Virus record (IMG/VR): IMGVR_UViG_3300027511_000001
Location: 1-46,160 of that record
Origin: a virus
Direction: 5' to 3' (one strand)
Length of the DNA: 46,160 bases
Shown here: positions 6,232 to 45,970 of the stretch, one piece after another
Layout of the letters: every line of letters starts with the position of its first letter
How positions within the stretch are numbered: the first letter of the stretch is position 1
The notes under the pieces: model-generated
The model's input: the letters and a program-made list of their open reading frames with translations, nothing else
What the model was told of the DNA's origin: nothing
The model's database searches: none
Translations under genes and position numbers: made by a program

Positions 6232-7061
6232 TCCTAACAATTAGCCCGTCGGGGCTTAATACAGCGCAAGAATGCCCAACGAAATATAATTTTTCGTCCA
6301 TTCGACGTCTGTCCCAAATTGGTGCGAAGCGTGATAAGATGGATCAAGGATCTCTCTTTCATGAAATGCTTGAAATGCATTACAATCTCATAATTTCTCA
6401 GAAAGAGAATCCAGAGCTAGCTCTCAATGAAATTATCATGGCAGTTACCGAGTTGGCCCGTGAGAAGAATCGTAATGATGAATACGACCATGAAATCGTT
6501 GAGGCATGTATTCGTAATTATCAAGAGTATGCTGTATATTATGCAGACGATGGGTGGTCTCCCCTTAAGGTTGAGACTCCATTTACCAAAGAGATATTTA
6601 AGAACGATCAGCATACAATAGTAATGGAAGGCATCATAGATTTAATTACGGAGAATCTAAACAGTAAAGCTTTTCCCGTAGATCACAAAACAGAATCCAA
6701 GATTTCATACCCTACGATTTTATCCAACCAATTCACCTGCTATGCATGGGCAACTGAGTCAGACACGATCGTTAAAAATAGAATCGGATTTCAAACAAGT
6801 AAAGGGCCGGGCGATAGGTTCCACCGCGATGTTTTGTCCTATACAAAAGAGCATATTGAAGAATGGCGTGAGTCTGTAATCTATCATTCAATGGAATTAA
6901 TTCGATTCATCGAAAAAGATTATTTTCCCATGCGCGAAGTGAATTGCTGGAATTGCTGGTTCAAGAAAATTTGTGAAGCAACGCCTGACGCCAGAGAATA
7001 TACAATCATACGTGATTTTACAGTGCGTGCTCCACATAATATCTATGATAAGCGTACATAA
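6228..7061 (+). CDS. Cas4/RecB-like PD-(D/E)XK nuclease
   Basis: The 277-residue protein starts at GTG. It has the layout of Cas4/AddB-type exonucleases. An early Cys (QECP, Cys16) and a C-terminal cluster CWNC-x5-C (about 239-249) together could bind an iron-sulfur cluster. The nuclease core shows GSLFHEMLE (RecB-like helix), GIIDL (Asp about 136) and FPVDHKT (D-x-K, about 150-155), followed by a QFTCYAWA helix. Such enzymes resect DNA ends in phage recombination. The Sak4-like ATPase about 1.3 kb downstream supports a joint recombination role. Confidence 0.85.
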   Translation: MILTISPSGLNTAQECPTKYNFSSIRRLSQIGAKRDKMDQGSLFHEMLEMHYNLIISQKENPELALNEIIMAVTELAREKNRNDEYDHEIVEACIRNYQEYAVYYADDGWSPLKVETPFTKEIFKNDQHTIVMEGIIDLITENLNSKAFPVDHKTESKISYPTILSNQFTCYAWATESDTIVKNRIGFQTSKGPGDRFHRDVLSYTKEHIEEWRESVIYHSMELIRFIEKDYFPMREVNCWNCWFKKICEATPDAREYTIIRDFTVRAPHNIYDKRT

Positions 7062-9998: not shown

Positions 9999-10400
9999 AT
10001 GGCTATGCAAATTTATATTTGTGGTCATGATATGCTTGAACATGTAAGTGAATATGGGTATGGAGTCTGTCATTGTATAAATGATTTTTGCCCATATATT
10101 AAATTCAATCCCAAAAATGTGACCGTGGCGGAACAGGCAGACGCAGCAGACTTAAAATCTGCCGAGGATAAACCTCGTGAGAGTTCGATTCTCTCCGGTC
10201 ACACCACTTATAAACCTGGAAAAGTTATAGAACCGTTTCCAACATATCGAGAAGAAAGAATAAAAATTCTTGAGCAACAGGAAGGTGTCATGGAAGATTA
10301 TCTACAAATGAAAGTAGATAATAAAGATTGGCATGGCGTGCAAGATGCGGCTTCTGATTTGCGAGATATTGAATCAGAATTGAAAGGTTTAAAATCGTGA
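9999..10400 (+). CDS. Open frame running through the tRNA gene
   Basis: The 133-residue frame has two unlike parts. Residues 1-40 are a small Cys/His protein (ICGHDM, VCHC, CPYIKF). Residues from about 70 to the end are a charged helical module (IKILEQQEGVMEDYLQMKV ... LRDIESELKGLKS) resembling small phage helical proteins. The segment between them (about residues 41-68) is the tRNA-Leu read as protein. The two parts may be separate genes that happen to be linked in frame by the tRNA, or a true fusion whose mRNA is destroyed when the tRNA is processed. There is no good ribosome site before 9999. Confidence 0.45.
   Translation: MAMQIYICGHDMLEHVSEYGYGVCHCINDFCPYIKFNPKNVTVAEQADAADLKSAEDKPRESSILSGHTTYKPGKVIEPFPTYREERIKILEQQEGVMEDYLQMKVDNKDWHGVQDAASDLRDIESELKGLKS
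10119..10206 (+). tRNA. tRNA-Leu (anticodon UAA) with encoded CCA
   Basis: The acceptor stem GTGACCG (10119-10125) pairs perfectly with CGGTCAC (10196-10202), followed by A and an encoded CCA (10203-10206). The anticodon stem GCAGA/TCTGC encloses loop CTTAAAA, giving anticodon TAA (10153-10155). The T-arm GAGAG-TTCGATT-CTCTC is intact. The long variable arm (GAGGATAAACCTC) is as expected for a class II leucine tRNA. UUA is a common codon in this AT-rich genome, so the tRNA probably supports translation of phage genes. Confidence 0.93.
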
Positions 10401-16304: not shown

Positions 16305-16465
16305 TTGTTCCAGATGATTTTGATTTAAATCAGCTCCCACAAGAAGAGCGTACAAATAATCCAATAAAGAATTTAATTGAGGCTCTTAAACATATAAAGC
16401 AACCTGAGAAAGAAGCTAGGACCCAGGTAGATTCACCTTCGGTAGATTCACCTTTGGAAACTTAA
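16301..16465 (+). CDS. Last gene of the left arm: 54-residue acidic protein
   Basis: The ATG overlaps the preceding stop and has AGGGGA nearby. It encodes an acidic helical protein (DDFDLNQLPQEER, NLIEALKHIKQPEKEA) ending with VDSP twice. The final 50 nt overlap, on the opposite strand, the end of the 1138-residue virion gene; a short DNA repeat there is translated in both directions. I see no terminator hairpin at the meeting point. Confidence 0.5.
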   Translation: MIVPDDFDLNQLPQEERTNNPIKNLIEALKHIKQPEKEARTQVDSPSVDSPLET

Positions 16466-19400
16466 CAATAGGTTGTTTCCCTTTACGCTCAACCGGAAAT
16501 AGATTCTCAGCTATCTTTCGCCCGGAGACAAATGGCGCAGGAAGATTTGAAACTAGATTCTTTAATGAACCACGGAAACGCCAATCTCCCTTTTCGACAC
16601 CTTTGGTTATATCCCCTCGAAGGTTCTCTGCTGTGTCAACTAAAAGACTCCCGGCCGGGCCAATTGGTACTTGCCAAAATTTCCCCGAAGCAGCTTTTTC
16701 TAGTACGTTTTGAAAGATCCCTAGCCCACCTACCATACTTAGATTTTGCACCGCTCGCCAACCTGGAGAAGAAATTGGAATTCTTTTCGACCGGGTCGCA
16801 GCTTGAAGTTTTTGTAGCCATTCCTTATCGTCGAAGTCTTCGTCTCCGGAAGCAGCTTCTAGCATTCTCTTTAAAACTTCGTCCTCTTCATCCTTCCCTG
16901 GAATTACGCTTTTTAAGACTTCGCGTAAATCGGCTACACCCTCACCGGCTAATAATCCAATTGCCGCAAACCGGGCAATCTGCCCAAAATTCTTGACAGG
17001 ATGTTTAAACATGTCACTTACAAACTTGGCGTGGGCATAAGCAAATGAGGAATACTGAGTTGCCATTTTTCCTAGTGGTGACGACGCCCATAGGGGTAGA
17101 TCCAAACTCCCGGTGCGAAATTGAGTTTTATCCGCAATTAAACGACCTGCCTCTGAAAGTAGTTTTGGATCATCTAACTTCAATCCTAGGCTTTCAATTT
17201 GTCGTTTTGCATAAGAGTTACCTTTTAACGCGTCTTGAGCTAACAGACGTCCAGCTACGTTAGCATGTACACGCATGACCTTATCCATTGTAGGCACGCC
17301 ATGCATATAGCCTTTATCGCCTAATGCTTTAGAAACCTCATGTGAGATATTGGGCCATAAAGCGCCTGTACGTGTAGCCTCTAGAACTTCTGGTTTAAAA
17401 TTCTTGAGAGTCTGCCATGCGGCACGGGTAGCACGTCTAAAGCCTACTGTAGAGGCAGTATGAGCCGCCTGAGCAGGTTGGTAAACGGCAGCGAAGGCAA
17501 GGTCACCCAACGCCGTTACCTTGCGTAGGCGGTCAGCAAAGCGCCCTGGCGTAGAGGACCTCTCTCGGCCCGTCACACGGCTTATAGCTTTTTCAACATA
17601 CTCCGCAGTTGGTTTTTCCCCCCTAAACTTCTTACCAGTTACCTTAGATAAATCCTTTCCAAGATATTTAACCTCAGCTACACGTCGGGTAGCCTCACTA
17701 ATATATTCTTCTAGAACTTTAAAGTCACGGCGGAAATCTAGCTTATTTCCTTGGCGTGATTTTTCAAGGTGACCTAATGGTTTGTTTTTTGTTCCGAAAG
17801 AACGGGGAGAAACTTCCCATTCCCATTGATTTTCATATTTCCTAGGAAAGTATCCCTGTCGATATCCAACCAAAACTTTGTTTGACTCTGCAATGTCGGC
17901 AATATTATCAAGTGTGGCTCGAAGCTTATCTGCAACTTGCTGTTCATGTGAATCAAGGGTGACTTTTTCTCCGTCCAGGAATCTAATAATTTTTTGTTCA
18001 CCTGCTTTATTAACTCCCTGAGTAGCTTCCCTTACATCTGCGATATTTTCAGAGGCAACCTTGGTATGGAAATCATCATAGGCTTTTACTCTCTTACCAA
18101 TACGAGGATTAGTCTTAGCTAGGTTGCGTAACGTAGGCAGGAACATGCGCTCTAAGACAGATAGAGTCTTTAATTTTCCGCCCTCTTTTTTCGGAGTCTT
18201 AGGTCCTTCCTCTTTTGGAATTTCAGTGGGAGGAATCGTGGGAGGGGGAGGTGTAGTAATTTGTGTAGGTTGAGACTCAATAGGTGGAGTTTGGAATTTA
18301 GGCGGAATCTCAGCCTTCGGAATTACATTCTCAGTCTTAGGAACCAAAGTTAACTTAGGAGATGGGGCTTTAACCGCAGCCAATTGTAATTCATCAAAGC
18401 TAGTTTTCTGTTCAGGCGTCATCTTTTGGCGCCAGGATTTATTCCCGTATTCTTGTTTAAGATCAGAAACAAAAGTAGCTAATTCTTCCTTAGGTGTAAA
18501 TTCAGGCCCGGTCTTAGTACGTTCAGGCAAAGCTAAATCTTCTAATCCAAGAGTTTCTAAAACTGAATCTAAACCTTTAGTCTCTAATGCTTGATTTAAA
18601 GTTGTATCGGCATTCTTAAAGGGTAGGACTTTTGATTCCGGAGCAATTTCAGGAGCCTGAACAACAGTAGGCTTAGGAGGCTCAACTGACATTACATCAA
18701 AAGGAACTTCTACGATTGGTGACTCACCGCCTAATTCTCTTAAAATGTCTTCAATACTTTGCCCTGTATCTTCAGCTTCATAAACATCAGCTTGAATTTC
18801 AGGTGCATCAACTGCGCGATTAACCCATTCATTAGGCAATACTGTATCGAATCGAGTAGGCTGCCCTAAACGTGCAGCTTCAGACCGACCTGCTTCGAAT
18901 ACTTCTAAGGGAATTGTAACTTTCTTTACATCTCCATAACTTGCTGCCCGGCTAGAATCAGTAGACCAAAAAGTTCCATCCCCACCAGAATAAACATCAA
19001 CCATTTCAGGCTGAACTTCTACAGGAGTAGGAGTCTCAACTCTTGGAGCCTCAACTTGTGGAGCTTGAATCTTAGTTGGAGCTTCTGCTTTGGGGCCAAA
19101 TTCTAAACTTGTATTGGGTGGAGTAATCGGAGTTGGAGTTTCAACCGTTGGCCCACCAGCGAAGCCAGATGCCGATAATCCACCAAATCCTACCCCCATT
19201 AAACCCTCAAGAATTTGTCCAAAGTTTTCAGGGTTAATACCCTGTTGAAAAATATTTTCCCCACCTTTATATAATTCTGGTAATCCACCAGCAAAGCCAG
19301 AAATAGCCCCCATACCAGCCAAGCCTTTTTCAATTCCTTGAGCCACTCGGCCGGCCAGGCCACCCGCCCCAACAAGAGCACCGGGAATATTTGTAGGATC

Positions 19401-19832
19401 TGACAATTCTTCTAAGGCTTCTCCACCAATTTTCTCAATAGCTTTTAAGGCATAAGGATTTGTGATTCCTGCTTCTTCTAAAGCAAGATCACGCAAAGAT
19501 CCACCGCCTAGCGTAGAAATACTAGGCGGCTGGACTTGAGGATTTAAAGCTTCTGGCAAATCGGAATAGTAACCAGCAGCAATATTTACTGGTTTCTGAG
19601 CCAAGCCAAATAGCTCATTAATTACGCCCGTACCAATCTTGCTCATTGGGCTAAATGGCGAGATCGGCCCGGCGGGCGTAGGTATCGTTAAATTAGAATA
19701 CCAAGGTTGTTCCTCGGTTTTATATTGTTCGATACCCTGAGTAAAAGGATTGACGAAAGCATTATAGACACTACCGCCAATGTCTGATCCAACTTGGCTA
19801 GCCCAATCTATTCCTTCGTCCCACCAACTCAT
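16416..19832 (-). CDS. Giant internal virion (ejection) protein, polyvalent-type
   Basis: The 1138-residue protein is the last gene of the virion operon, where podoviruses place proteins ejected with the DNA. Residues 1-230 contain Gly/Ala-rich, possibly membrane-active stretches. Residues about 230-275 and 500-560 are Pro/Thr/Lys linkers. Residues about 278-345 (VYSGGDGTFWSTDSSRAASYG ...) resemble the core of an ADP-ribosyltransferase-like fold as found in phage polyvalent proteins. The C-terminal half is long and helical (LERMFLPTLRNLAKTNPRIG onward) and resembles large polyvalent-protein-associated domains. It ends with the repeat KVNLP-KVNLP. The ejection role is from position and size; the enzymatic domain is a tentative reading. 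Confidence 0.7.
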   Translation of the reverse strand: MSWWDEGIDWASQVGSDIGGSVYNAFVNPFTQGIEQYKTEEQPWYSNLTIPTPAGPISPFSPMSKIGTGVINELFGLAQKPVNIAAGYYSDLPEALNPQVQPPSISTLGGGSLRDLALEEAGITNPYALKAIEKIGGEALEELSDPTNIPGALVGAGGLAGRVAQGIEKGLAGMGAISGFAGGLPELYKGGENIFQQGINPENFGQILEGLMGVGFGGLSASGFAGGPTVETPTPITPPNTSLEFGPKAEAPTKIQAPQVEAPRVETPTPVEVQPEMVDVYSGGDGTFWSTDSSRAASYGDVKKVTIPLEVFEAGRSEAARLGQPTRFDTVLPNEWVNRAVDAPEIQADVYEAEDTGQSIEDILRELGGESPIVEVPFDVMSVEPPKPTVVQAPEIAPESKVLPFKNADTTLNQALETKGLDSVLETLGLEDLALPERTKTGPEFTPKEELATFVSDLKQEYGNKSWRQKMTPEQKTSFDELQLAAVKAPSPKLTLVPKTENVIPKAEIPPKFQTPPIESQPTQITTPPPPTIPPTEIPKEEGPKTPKKEGGKLKTLSVLERMFLPTLRNLAKTNPRIGKRVKAYDDFHTKVASENIADVREATQGVNKAGEQKIIRFLDGEKVTLDSHEQQVADKLRATLDNIADIAESNKVLVGYRQGYFPRKYENQWEWEVSPRSFGTKNKPLGHLEKSRQGNKLDFRRDFKVLEEYISEATRRVAEVKYLGKDLSKVTGKKFRGEKPTAEYVEKAISRVTGRERSSTPGRFADRLRKVTALGDLAFAAVYQPAQAAHTASTVGFRRATRAAWQTLKNFKPEVLEATRTGALWPNISHEVSKALGDKGYMHGVPTMDKVMRVHANVAGRLLAQDALKGNSYAKRQIESLGLKLDDPKLLSEAGRLIADKTQFRTGSLDLPLWASSPLGKMATQYSSFAYAHAKFVSDMFKHPVKNFGQIARFAAIGLLAGEGVADLREVLKSVIPGKDEEDEVLKRMLEAASGDEDFDDKEWLQKLQAATRSKRIPISSPGWRAVQNLSMVGGLGIFQNVLEKAASGKFWQVPIGPAGSLLVDTAENLRGDITKGVEKGDWRFRGSLKNLVSNLPAPFVSGRKIAENLFPVERKGKQPIVKFPKVNLPKVNLPGS

Positions 19833-37600: not shown

Positions 37601-39181
37601 TTAGTGATAGAGCTTGACTCCACCTCGATGAAATCTCTTTTCTTCGAACTTTTCCATCTGTTGATAAAATGCAAACTGATTTCCCGTAGATTCAACATCT
37701 TGCAAAATCCTCGCCAATTCTTTGTGCTTCTCAGCTTCTCGATCCAAACCGTTTAAGTAACGATCAACAGCCTTCATTAGATAACGGCAGCCATCAATCG
37801 GGTCGTCTCCGTCAAACTCTTTGATATCTTCTTTGTTCTTTTCGTCGTATACGCAGTTTGGAATCGTGTCGATTAAAACTTTGCAATTAGCGAAGATTTG
37901 AAGCCTTGGGATATTTGTTTCAGGCGGATCAGGTTGAAAAATACTTTCATATTCTTTGAAACGCTTTGGCCCATAAATACGCATGATACGATTCGCTGTC
38001 TCTAAATTATAACCCTCAGGAGGGATATATTTTGGAGGCCGCGGTTTCCAACGTAGCATTTCCTGAAGTAACATTTTTCCGCCAACGCGATCATTATCGG
38101 CCCGGTGTGGCATTATTCCTGAATGCTTTTGGAATTGTTGTGCAATCGTCTCTTCATCTCCGCGTTGATTCCAGGCAGAAGGATCTAATTCAAAAGTTTT
38201 AAGTTGCTCTTTGCCAAGATCACGTTTGAAGTCAGCAGCCCACTCAGAAATATATTTCCCTTTCTGACAATATTCATAGTAGATGAATACTCGCATGTCG
38301 GGAGATATTGCAGCTTTGCCAATCCATGTATTTGCAGCGAATCCCCAATCGCCTGCGGCAATACGAGGCCACCATTCAGGGATTGTAAATGGATCAATTA
38401 CGTGTAAAGCATTTAATGGCTCGTCTTTGTAACGATGTTCTCTGAAATCAGGAAATACCTGGCCCTCGAATGCTGACCAATTTCCTTCTGCCTTAGCTTC
38501 ATACTCACGTTCGCCTAACATACGGAGACGATTTATATAGTTAGGATCTGATTCAAGAAGTTTAGGATTATCCTGCATCTTAGCAGGAATAAAAATTGAT
38601 TTCGAGACCAGATGTCCCTTTACTTTATAATGAATAGGGGTTCGTCCATCTGGTGACGGATCAATAAAACGCTTTTTTACCCACGCATGACCTTCTCCGC
38701 CCGGGTTTGATCCCGAGCGCATAATGGTTGGTAATCCAGTTTGTTTGTGTGCTGATCTGCAACGTGTTGAAAGGTACGTATACATACGTTCGGTAAAGTG
38801 GGTTAGCTCGTCCCATCCAATATAGTTGTATGCAGCACCATCATGCTTATAAACGTCAGCATCCGAGTCAATGTAGCCTAGACGTTGTGTAGCTCCGGAT
38901 GGAAAGTACCAAATATGTTTAGTTTCGTTGTACTTGCCCCCAACAAGAGGATAATATTCTCTTGTCTTAGGGATAACATGTTCCTCAAGTTGGGGGAAAG
39001 TACGCCGAAAAATGATCCCATTGTAATGTTTGTTGAGATGGAAACCACGAGTAATTGGAAGCATTACTAAGCCTTCGGTTTTTCCACCACCTAAGGCTCC
39101 GCCATAAAACGCTTCAAAGAAATCATCGGGCAAGCTAAGAAATTCTTCTTGCCGGCCCGGGTTTGGTCTCCATTCCAACAT
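37601..39181 (-). CDS. Terminase large subunit (packaging ATPase-nuclease)
   Basis: The 526-residue motor protein cuts concatemeric DNA and pumps it into the head. From ATG 39181, Walker A is GGALGGGKT (residues 27-35) and the Walker B-like strand is YNYIGWDEL. The RNase H-like nuclease is marked by IAAGDWGF, with conserved Asp, and later DPSAWNQRGDEE and DDPIDGCRYLMKA. The family looks like the large terminases of short-tailed and related phages. A TTG ten codons upstream could be used instead, overlapping the preceding gene. Confidence 0.92.
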   Translation of the reverse strand: MLEWRPNPGRQEEFLSLPDDFFEAFYGGALGGGKTEGLVMLPITRGFHLNKHYNGIIFRRTFPQLEEHVIPKTREYYPLVGGKYNETKHIWYFPSGATQRLGYIDSDADVYKHDGAAYNYIGWDELTHFTERMYTYLSTRCRSAHKQTGLPTIMRSGSNPGGEGHAWVKKRFIDPSPDGRTPIHYKVKGHLVSKSIFIPAKMQDNPKLLESDPNYINRLRMLGEREYEAKAEGNWSAFEGQVFPDFREHRYKDEPLNALHVIDPFTIPEWWPRIAAGDWGFAANTWIGKAAISPDMRVFIYYEYCQKGKYISEWAADFKRDLGKEQLKTFELDPSAWNQRGDEETIAQQFQKHSGIMPHRADNDRVGGKMLLQEMLRWKPRPPKYIPPEGYNLETANRIMRIYGPKRFKEYESIFQPDPPETNIPRLQIFANCKVLIDTIPNCVYDEKNKEDIKEFDGDDPIDGCRYLMKAVDRYLNGLDREAEKHKELARILQDVESTGNQFAFYQQMEKFEEKRFHRGGVKLYH

Positions 39182-39186
39182 TTTAA

Positions 39187-39543
39187 TTACGAAGTGTAGC
39201 TCGGATACCAAAGTCCCTGCGATGGTACATAAGTAAGGAAAAGTACCTTACCAACAACCGCAGTAAATGCCAGACCAATTGCCTTAGAGTTTCCAGAGGC
39301 AACTCCACCAGTCGCGCCAGTGAAAATGCCAGTAGGAATTAAAGCAATAGTTCCAGCGAAGCCTTCATACGGCAGATCAACTAAAACTTGGGCAGCCGTA
39401 CCAGAGACTCTATGAAGATAATTGGTAATAGCTAAACTCGTACCAGCTGAAGAAGCTAAAAGTGCTCCTTCAATACCCTGAGTCGAGCCGCCAGGTGTAG
39501 TCAGCCCAAAACGTTTCGATTCAAAATCTGAAGCAGCAGACAT
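39187..39543 (-). CDS. Small beta-rich protein before the terminase gene
   Basis: The start ATG 39543 is chosen because the longer frame runs into the holin-like gene. The 118-residue product is Ala/Gly/Thr-rich with beta strands (VLVDLPYEGFAGTIALIPTG, GKVLFLTYVPSQGLWYPS). No signal peptide. It could be a capsid decoration or head-fibre protein; not recognised. Confidence 0.5.
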   Translation of the reverse strand: MSAASDFESKRFGLTTPGGSTQGIEGALLASSAGTSLAITNYLHRVSGTAAQVLVDLPYEGFAGTIALIPTGIFTGATGGVASGNSKAIGLAFTAVVGKVLFLTYVPSQGLWYPSYTS

Positions 39544-43368: not shown

Positions 43369-43754
43369 TTCTTAACACACCCACACTTAGTAGAAGACCA
43401 GTAGCCAGTATGGGAGCAATTTTCTGAATGACGACCGTATTGTTGCTCCATCTGATAAACATTCTGACAGGTAAAATCAACTGAATGATTTTGGTGAGGG
43501 GGCTGATCCGCGTTAAATAGAATATAACCTAAACCTTTGGTATTTAAACCAGTGAGTTTGCACATACCTTTTTCAGGTTCGACAGGTTTTGATACCTTCG
43601 GTGCCTCTACTGGTTTATTAATTACGGGGGGTTTAGGGATTTCTACAAGAGGTTTAGCAGCAGGCTTAGGATCTGGGATAATTGGCACAGGCTTCTTCCT
43701 CTTTTTGGGCTTGGGTTTCGGCTTCGGTTTAATCTTGACCTTAGCCTTAGCCAT
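43365..43754 (-). CDS. Lys/Pro-rich protein with C-terminal Cys domain
   Basis: The 129-residue product has residues 1-62 as a Lys/Pro-rich tail-like extension (KVKIKPKPKPKPKKRKK, then PVI, PEAP and PKP repeats). A compact Cys/Trp/Tyr domain follows (CKLTGL, TCQNVYQMEQQYG, NCSHTGYWSSTKCGC) with five Cys. It overlaps both neighbours (TAATG with the small terminase gene, ATGA with the secreted gene). Function unknown; a Pro/Lys-rich linker would suit binding of DNA or cell wall. Confidence 0.55.
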   Translation of the reverse strand: MAKAKVKIKPKPKPKPKKRKKPVPIIPDPKPAAKPLVEIPKPPVINKPVEAPKVSKPVEPEKGMCKLTGLNTKGLGYILFNADQPPHQNHSVDFTCQNVYQMEQQYGRHSENCSHTGYWSSTKCGCVKK

Positions 43755-44236
43755 TATCCCACTCTTTCAATTACCTTGACATCAGTAAAATCAGATTCGG
43801 ATTTAAGTTGTGGGGCATAGATAACGACTTGATTATTAGCTTGTGGGGCAATCTTTTCACCAGTCTTCTCAACAATTACTGCCATATTCTTGGCTACTGA
43901 TAATGCTCCCTTAACGCTCAGCTTTCTAATCTTATCATCCGTAATTACGCCCATCGCAGCTAGCATTTTATCTAGAGCCTGATCTTTTACGGCCTCTAAC
44001 CTTTTCTGAATTTTGTCATGTACTTCAGGCTGAGATCGAGACTCTTTTGCGAGATGGGCCGTGATTGGAGCAATGCCAAAATTTTCCGCGACATCCGCAG
44101 CCTTTTCAAAATGCGCCGAATATCCAATGATCTCGCGGAGTTTATCAGGGATATTTTTGACACCATTGCCCCGGCCGGCCGTATTCTTAACGTGACCTAA
44201 TCGAATTTCTAGCTCGGATTCAGTTATAATTGCCAT
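43754..44236 (-). CDS. Putative terminase small subunit
   Basis: From ATG 44236 the 160-residue product shows helical segments with a helix-turn-helix-like part (KAADVAENFGIAPITAHLAKES) and a helical oligomerisation-like segment (VHDKIQKRLEAVKDQALDKMLAAMG), the plan of small terminases that recognise packaging sites. It is the first gene of the virion operon, but it is separated from the large terminase by about 4.5 kb of exported-protein genes. An alternative is a late regulator. A GGGACCC element overlaps its start codon, where a ribosome site would be expected. Confidence 0.6.
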   Translation of the reverse strand: MAIITESELEIRLGHVKNTAGRGNGVKNIPDKLREIIGYSAHFEKAADVAENFGIAPITAHLAKESRSQPEVHDKIQKRLEAVKDQALDKMLAAMGVITDDKIRKLSVKGALSVAKNMAVIVEKTGEKIAPQANNQVVIYAPQLKSESDFTDVKVIERVG

Positions 44237-44271
44237 GGGACCCAATAAATAGTAAGGTACACCCTGCGTAG

Positions 44272-44300
44272 AATATAGGATAGATGGGACCCTTTGTCAA
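44272..44300 (-). promoter_or_regulatory. Strong sigma70-like promoter of the virion operon
   Basis: On the - strand, TTGACA (44300-44295), a 17-nt spacer and TATATT (44277-44272). The spacer contains GGGTCCCAT (44292-44284), one of four copies of that element. Transcription would start about 30 nt before the small terminase ATG. Confidence 0.7.
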
Positions 44301-44344
44301 CCCCCCATTTCAACCCATCTTGGGTCAATTGTTTACCTTGGATT

Positions 44345-44373
44345 ATTATTAATTGAATGGGACCCTTTTTAAA
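44345..44373 (-). promoter_or_regulatory. Second, weaker promoter of the same design
   Basis: On the - strand, TTTAAA (44373-44368), 17 nt, then AATAAT (44350-44345). The spacer again contains GGGTCCCAT (44365-44357) at the same offset as in the first promoter. The -35 box is only 4/6 consensus. Confidence 0.45.
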
Positions 44374-44419
44374 ACTGAAGTAGAAAACAAATGACAAACA
44401 CATATGATAGCTACAGTGA

Positions 44420-44432
44420 CCCCCCTGGGGGG
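44420..44432. repeat. Perfect C6-T-G6 dyad
   Basis: Six C, one T, six G form a perfect short palindrome directly before the fourth ATGGGACCC copy. It could be a protein site, a barrier or a terminator arm for rightward transcription. Confidence 0.5.
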
Positions 44433-44572
44433 AAATGGGACCCATAAAAATTGAGGGGTGGGGGGTGGGTATCGTTCATATATGTACAGTATAGCCCAAG
44501 TTTTTTTATACTCATATATGTTGAGCATCATGCACTCATACACCTTACACTCTTAACAAGTGGACATGTCTT

Positions 44573-45083: not shown

Positions 45084-45188
45084 ATGAGAAAGAAAGAAAG
45101 AAGGAAAGCAAATGTCGAGTATCAGTCGCGAGGAATTGAAGGATTCGGACGGAGAGGTTATCGGCGAAGTGGACGTCGAAACTCTTGA
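45084..45188 (+). CDS. 34-residue basic leader frame (tentative)
   Basis: The ATG has GGAGG (45074-45078) 5 nt upstream. The frame encodes an Arg/Lys-rich peptide overlapping the start of the larger gene in another frame. It could be a leader that adjusts translation of the following gene, or chance. Confidence 0.25.
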   Translation: MRKKERRKANVEYQSRGIEGFGRRGYRRSGRRNS

Positions 45189-45579
45189 CGCCGTGGCTTT
45201 CGAGCCGTCTGAGGCACTGTCGGAGGCTATCAAGGTCGGCAGCGTCAAAACTTCGCAGCGTGTCGTCGAGGTTTTCGCAAAGAATAAGGCTGGCGACGTG
45301 ACGCGAGTCTATCGCCAGTCTTACACGAAGTGCACCGCTGAAAACGAGGCAGGGGCTCTAGCCCTTCCCGGCGTTGATGGTGACGAATCCAAAATTTGGG
45401 ATTTCGTCTCGGCACGCGCGGATAGCAACGTTTATCAGCCGATTTACGTTCGTCTTCGTAACGCCGCTCAGGGACCGGAAAAGGCCGTGGCCCGCATGGC
45501 CAAGCTTTTCGAGGGACTTACGCCGTCGCAGCGTGAGGCGGCTCGTGAAGCGCTCAAGGCTGCTGGAGTTCTTGACTAA
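45112..45579 (+). CDS. 155-residue acidic/helical protein, GC-rich codons
   Basis: It starts MSSISREELKDSDGEVIGEVDVETLDAV and ends MAKLFEGLTPSQREAAREALKAAG, a helical C-terminus. The body is mixed alpha-beta. AAGGA lies before the ATG. The gene is clearly more GC-rich than the rest, especially at third positions, which points to highly expressed codon usage or a different origin. I do not recognise the family. The position near a predicted promoter suggests an early, abundant protein. Confidence 0.65.
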   Translation: MSSISREELKDSDGEVIGEVDVETLDAVAFEPSEALSEAIKVGSVKTSQRVVEVFAKNKAGDVTRVYRQSYTKCTAENEAGALALPGVDGDESKIWDFVSARADSNVYQPIYVRLRNAAQGPEKAVARMAKLFEGLTPSQREAAREALKAAGVLD

Positions 45580-45712: not shown

Positions 45713-45970
45713 ATGAATAAAGAAAAGAAAAGCAAGCTAATTGAATACAAGAATATTTATGTAGTCATATTGCCAGATGAATGCCATATCATTTGTATGG
45801 GTTCCGATGGTAAATGGGACGACAGCTACAACTACAAGTACAACTACTACAGCTATACCTACAACTACTACAACTGTAACTACTACAGCTACAACTACAA
45901 CTACTACAGCTACAAGTACAACTACTACCAAGCCGATATCTCTAATTTTGAGCCTATTTTCACAAAGTAG
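45713..45970 (+). CDS. Tyr/Asn-rich repeat protein
   Basis: The 85-residue product has an AAAGGAG ribosome site. Residues 1-37 look like an ordinary small domain (LIEYKNIYVVILPDECHIICMGSDG). Residues about 38-72 are almost only Tyr, Asn, Ser, Lys and Thr in near-repeats such as YNYYSYNYNYYSY. The repeat DNA is a run of related TAC/AAC triplets, so its length may vary. Such Tyr-rich sequences can self-associate. In another frame the same DNA is Thr-rich; the ribosome site supports the Tyr frame. Confidence 0.55.
   Translation: MNKEKKSKLIEYKNIYVVILPDECHIICMGSDGKWDDSYNYKYNYYSYTYNYYNCNYYSYNYNYYSYKYNYYQADISNFEPIFTK

Follow-up and report, generated by a model that had tools for sequence, protein, structure and literature searches.

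The window analysed here, a single IMG/VR virus record, is a stretch of viral DNA of 46,160 bases in which divergent early and late operons are separated by a long intergenic gap. The early genes on the + strand encode a helicase, a PD-(D/E)XK nuclease, a DNA polymerase and a primase, and the virion operon on the - strand includes the large terminase (TerL; 37601-39211, -; phrog_979 terminase large subunit, E 6.3e-45) and a T7-like internal virion protein (16416-19832). The first gene of the virion operon (43754-44236, -) encodes a small-terminase-like protein (TerS) of 160 aa with a helix-turn-helix (HTH) plus long helices, of which there is one homologue per genome. In the gap, at the 5' end of the virion operon, ATGGGACCC occurs as four exact copies within 209 nt, all on the + strand, and is found nowhere else on either strand of the window; dinucleotide shuffles of the window (n=100) gave a mean of 0.20 copies of the word and a maximum of two, never four. 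The four exact copies that the first-pass annotation had reported as the only ones in the window are thus confirmed by count and lie far from chance. The shorter string GGGACCC likewise has no additional exact copy in the window. As the virion operon lies on the - strand, the word is best read as GGGTCCCAT, its form on the strand that encodes TerS and the other virion genes.

The copy that is 5'-most on the coding strand (copy 1, or R0; 44435-44443, -) lies at -207 from the TerS start, in a conserved position within a block that recurs in the relatives L004 and L005. This core block (44389-44466, -) comprises a C-rich tract, GGGTCCCATTTCC, a G-run and CACTGTAGCTA. A GC dyad, CCCCCC-T-GGGGGG, adjoins copy 1 (44420-44432) and is a weak candidate for a cleavage region (p 0.03 in the window). 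Copy 2 (44357-44365, -; -129) is an accessory copy flanked by TTTAAA and AATAAT, at a position not common to L004 and L005. Copy 3 (44284-44292, -; -56) lies within the 17-nt spacer of the TerS promoter, an overlap unique to this phage, and copy 4 (44235-44243, -) overlaps the TerS start codon, as had been noted at first pass, covering two bases of the ATG (44236-44234). The promoter of the virion operon is sigma70-like (44272-44300, -), with TTGACA at 44300-44295, the 17-nt spacer and TATATT at 44277-44272, and is kept in relatives that do not have the repeat there. The first-pass annotation had placed two copies within promoter spacers; this holds for the copy at 44284, whereas the TTTAAA/AATAAT pair around copy 2 is a poor match to a promoter.

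The call of 43754-44236 as a small terminase, also made in the first-pass annotation, is supported by synteny. In 15 of 66 loci the gap between the end of the homologue and TerL is 20-300 nt, and in the others it reaches up to 5.2 kb; their closeness to TerL identifies the gene as the small terminase by position. Homology adds less. The predicted structure of the protein (pLDDT 79.6) shows the helix-turn-helix plus long helices, and several TerS-like members match HTH families. A six-member profile had as its best PDB matches 4zc3 and 3zqp (SF6 TerS), with weak E values of 0.05-0.09, and 4 of 47 members matched the TerS PHROG phrog_2538 (best 2.7e-4); none of these hits passed the curated cut-offs. 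When a larger profile (A7) was run against the PDB, it retrieved only HTH repressors and a designed protein, and no TerS; fold searches with the TerS-like protein gave general HTH matches only, with no E below 0.001, cultured TerS proteins gave no alignment with it, and no family library named it confidently as TerS. The TerS identity of the gene is therefore well supported by synteny and weakly by homology.

The nearest relatives by TerL are L004 (76% identity) and L005 (75%), whose TerS proteins are 52% and 59% identical, respectively, to that of the window. Both have GGGTCCC copies ahead of the homologous TerS gene, oriented as in the window. The window aligns with L005 at 44389-44466 (85% identity over 81 nt), the rest of the intergenic region not aligning, and with L004 at 44357-44463 (79% identity). 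The copy at 44435 sits within this best-conserved non-coding block; the remaining three have no positions in common with the relatives, and at the place of copy 4 L004 carries a degenerate GGTCTCAT and L005 has nothing. Scanning DNA for the pattern of the conserved core gave matches only in the three nearest relatives.

A wider set of loci, all of them uncultured contigs with predicted TerS starts, was fetched through TerL, so that it represents a sample. Deeper TerL alignments yielded about 115 further loci, many on contigs of 44-50 kb, and a profile of the window's TerS-like protein found one homologue in most of them; most of these TerS proteins are 16-32% identical to that of the window. 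After removal of near-duplicates at 95% TerS identity, 68 non-redundant loci were left, in which the zone from -1000 to +300 of the TerS start (82 kb) was compared with the remainder (870 kb). On the TerS strand, GGGTCCC had 111 copies near TerS starts and 21 elsewhere, whereas in the reverse orientation (GGGACCC) there were 2 near TerS and 11 elsewhere; the shift in orientation was significant (Fisher test, p 7e-7). GGGTCCC was the top enriched 7-mer in the first 47 loci (81 copies near, 14 elsewhere), and 22 loci added later, which had no part in defining the pattern, exhibited the same enrichment. The consensus from the 81 copies is GGGTCCCAT, with A in 61 and T in 69. Counted genome-wide and in relatives, the word that the first-pass annotation had seen only in the window is a family-wide one, kept near TerS, and the array is very unlikely to be due to chance and is widespread outside this phage.

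At loci with enough upstream sequence, at least one copy was present in 50 of 64 and at least two in 36 of 64. There are one to four copies per locus, the first at a median of -274 from the TerS start and the second often 57-83 nt beyond it; spacing is irregular, with no helical phasing of the copies. On near-complete contigs the array is usually the sole cluster. The association with TerS holds for TerS-TerL gaps from 20 nt to 5.2 kb. The word was missing near TerS in 14 of the 64 loci, where a search found no clear replacement repeat, and its presence and absence on the TerS tree requires 10 changes, indicating that it has been repeatedly lost or replaced. Among cultured phages, 50,697 phage records contained no TerS match, and six phages with a TerL about 30% identical had no GGGTCCC cluster at TerS, with phage M6 carrying three scattered GGGTCCC copies upstream of TerS. 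A search of the literature for GGGTCCC in phages turned up nothing but a Staphylococcus att site, which is unrelated. In one relative, L106, two GGGACCC copies lie 11 nt apart (1407-1424) with none in the usual orientation, the only such case near TerS.

The TerS gene itself holds twelve of the 111 near-TerS copies, distributed over two reading frames. In the group of L045, L057, L058, L059 and L063 the frame is 0 and the word encodes Gly-Ser-His (GSH); in L055, L081, L097, L124 and L125 it falls in another frame and encodes Gly-Pro-Ile (GPI). Since the same nine bases are kept in different frames, selection appears to act on the DNA, and these copies point to a DNA site and not to a protein-coding constraint. 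The orientation bias of 111:2 in turn means that, for all the near-palindromic form of GGGTCCC, the site functions in one direction only.

The first-pass annotation had regarded the array as operators built into the virion promoter. In 36 of 64 loci a strong sigma70-like promoter (TTGACA-N16-18-TATAAT, with at most two mismatches) is found at about -160 to 0 of TerS; with a background of 0.086 per kb, this promoter counts as real and conserved, and it suggests that the late genes are transcribed by host RNA polymerase. The repeats do not follow this promoter. Copies in promoter-like spacers numbered 2 of 89, both belonging to the window's own sequence (the near-identical sister contig L116 being counted as such), where 3.3 were expected by position. 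Overlap of a copy with the start codon is rare as well, and was seen apart from the window only in L073. The annotation had held that relatives keeping the promoter and not the repeats would speak against its idea, and such relatives exist: TTGACA-N17-TATATT stands in front of TerS in both L005, where it is intact, and L004, where it is degraded, and neither spacer contains a repeat. With the count in spacers below expectation, the geometry noted at first pass is most likely a chance property of this phage. A promoter-embedded operator was accordingly rejected as a conserved design, the copies having no fixed position relative to -35 and -10.

What the survey establishes is that the word exists, that it is biased in orientation and tied to TerS but not to the promoter, and that it occurs in coding DNA in different frames. 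Judged from sequence comparison, we think it somewhat probable that the array is a cis-acting packaging recognition site of a family of uncultured tailed phages of 44-50 kb, either resembling a pac or forming the cosB portion of a cos. A side remark of the first-pass annotation had raised a possible packaging role, and it is borne out to the extent that the repeats follow TerS, keep a single orientation and continue into the coding sequence of TerS. In such a model GGGTCCCAT would serve as a directional binding word, with one copy fixed in the conserved core about 270 nt before the TerS start and one to three accessory copies downstream of it, some within TerS. The HTH small terminase, the gene of which starts at or inside the array, would bind several copies together as a ring or other oligomer; TerS is the presumed binder of the word on the basis of their linkage. 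Bound TerS would then bring TerL to nick the concatemer, presumably nearby, and the direction of loading would thereby be set. A fixed core copy with movable accessory copies would fit a cleavage-proximal site plus loading sites.

Cutting may be headful or at fixed ends, pac and cos not being separable from these contigs. The near-complete contigs have their ends at scattered positions, and relative to the window G004 has a circular map, which would fit circularly permuted, terminally redundant virion DNA and also intracellular circles or concatemers. Among the array-holding contigs examined, none ended at the core; all read through it, and no fixed genome end is evident there. A cosN-like dyad beside the first copy was no stronger than in shuffles in most loci, and the GC dyad was rejected as a general cosN, reaching significance (p<0.05) in about 12% of loci only. 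As the dyad is strong in a few phages (the window, L045, L113 and L118) and absent in most relatives, no cosN is claimed.

Several observations stand against a packaging site. The word is lacking near TerS at the 14 of 64 loci mentioned above, with no obvious substitute, and the TerS call itself comes mainly from synteny. In L084 TerS lies 3.8 kb downstream, yet the sole GGGTCCCA of the 44.7-kb contig, which also reads GGGTCCCAT, remains near the late-operon promoter, and in L079 and L091 one gene intervenes between array and TerS. These three loci, in which the array stays at the start of the operon and not beside TerS, instead favor the main rival, an operator array of the late (virion) operon through which the TerS-like HTH protein or another phage regulator would repress or time transcription, the copies in the first gene acting as auxiliary operators. 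The position of the array at the 5' end of the late operon would suit such a role, as would a first copy 7-28 nt downstream of a strong promoter in L045, L052, L057, L058, L059 and L063, and the HTH domain is as similar to phage repressors as to TerS proteins. We nevertheless consider an operator array unlikely. The copies have no fixed position against the conserved TerS promoter, the two in spacers being the window's own; L004 and L005 keep the promoter and lose the overlapping copies; and no copies are found at early promoters. Dimeric operators are usually symmetric, whereas this word is strictly directional. The two roles may also be combined: binding of TerS to its own promoter region, with a dual role, is compatible with all the data.

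The remaining two candidates, origin iterons and an RNA signal, have a lower probability than the late-operon operator. As replication-origin iterons in the intergenic region of the divergent early and late operons, the copies would be expected as same-orientation direct repeats in one cluster per genome, as they are, and the array does coincide with the cumulative GC skew minimum between the operons. The skew at the array tracks gene orientation, however, and the word hugs TerS and enters it in several lineages while most of the long intergenic region is without it; with irregular spacing out of helical phase, and with no initiator recognised among the early proteins scanned (part of the early genes), we regard an origin as improbable. 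Very improbable is an RNA-level signal in the late mRNA leader, such as a regulatory hairpin or binding site working in the sense orientation only, which would account for the strict orientation and for the GC-rich inverted repeat beside the first copy in some phages, but which matches no Rfam family, finds no general dyad, and places its first copy upstream of the TerS-nearest promoter in most loci, where it may not be co-transcribed.

The packaging-site reading can be set against known systems. Direct repeats covering the promoter(s) and the beginning of the gene for the small terminase, together with an HTH TerS (gp1), are also found in the pac of Bacillus phages SPP1 and SF6, whose headful packaging would fit the scattered contig ends of the window family (PMC4737164), and the SPP1-type layout, with repeats running from the promoter into TerS, is present here. 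There is no sequence kinship between the sites, and SF6, although closely related to SPP1, does not have the boxA repeats of SPP1; the family of the window, in contrast, retains one 9-bp word across divergent TerS proteins. In the cos of lambda, N15 and 21, in which the R sites of cosB adjoin cosN, a variable number (1-3) of TerS-binding R sites likewise lies just upstream of TerS, as core and accessory sites; lambda cosB has three TerS sites and N15 has one (PMC4669245), which parallels the one to four copies of the array. These copies present a cosB-like geometry and copy number ahead of TerS and may be putative R sites, although the word is shorter than in lambda-type cos and extends into TerS, the GC dyad is inconsistent, and the contigs share no fixed ends. 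P22 pac is an asymmetric 22-bp recognition sequence within the TerS gene (PMC9611059), comparable to an array within or next to TerS, but it is a single site and the array is multi-copy. Operators of phage repressors and the iterons of plasmids and phages are also short repeated words in an intergenic control region; the array, in contrast, is strictly directional, independent of promoters and present in coding DNA as well.

Recognition of viral DNA by small terminases has been described as unclear and controversial (PMC9611059), the SPP1/SF6 repeats being poorly bound by TerS and not conserved between close relatives, and the DNA-binding domain of SF6 TerS having little preference for pac repeats in vitro (PMC4737164). 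With its one-way markers at the same place in dozens of relatives, the array described here would most likely be the tag that marks DNA for the packaging machine. If so, comparison and mutation would offer a direct test of DNA recognition in packaging, given a short, strictly directional word kept beside TerS proteins whose identity has fallen to about 16-32%, and a packaging site would be readable from metagenomic phage genomes without a cultured member. More tentatively, the word may be lineage-wide in function: dozens of divergent phages would share a 9-bp directional TerS recognition sequence, so that their terminases could cross-recognise DNA, and the same contact between TerS and array might switch off the overlapped late promoter, which would link the close of late expression to the onset of packaging.

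Further features were observed around the array and elsewhere in the window. An inverted repeat of the GTTC-N7-GAAC type (for example TGTTCATCGGGCGAAC and GTGTTCTACGCGCGAAC) recurs near the array, in L026 at 6590-6615, in L085 at 380-400, and between the second and third copies in L045, L057, L058, L059 and L063; it is possibly the operator of a different regulator. The long intergenic region contains a 155-aa ORF (45112-45579) that has 73% DNA identity over 260 nt in G004 and no family match, and a small ORF at 45713-45970 has a repeated Tyr/Asn-rich stretch from CTACAACTACTAC-type repeats. The first 30 bases of the window are all T, the sister contig G001 breaks 22 nt past the window's other end (46160), and the break in G004 (45.6 kb) falls elsewhere, at a TA-rich site; these differing break points indicate a circular map with breaks in low-complexity DNA. 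Between early genes, a 27-nt inverted repeat (934-960 and 999-1025; 89% complementary, 38-nt loop) is a possible terminator or regulatory hairpin, and a tRNA-Leu (TAA) is predicted at 10119-10206, within the ORF region 9999-10400.
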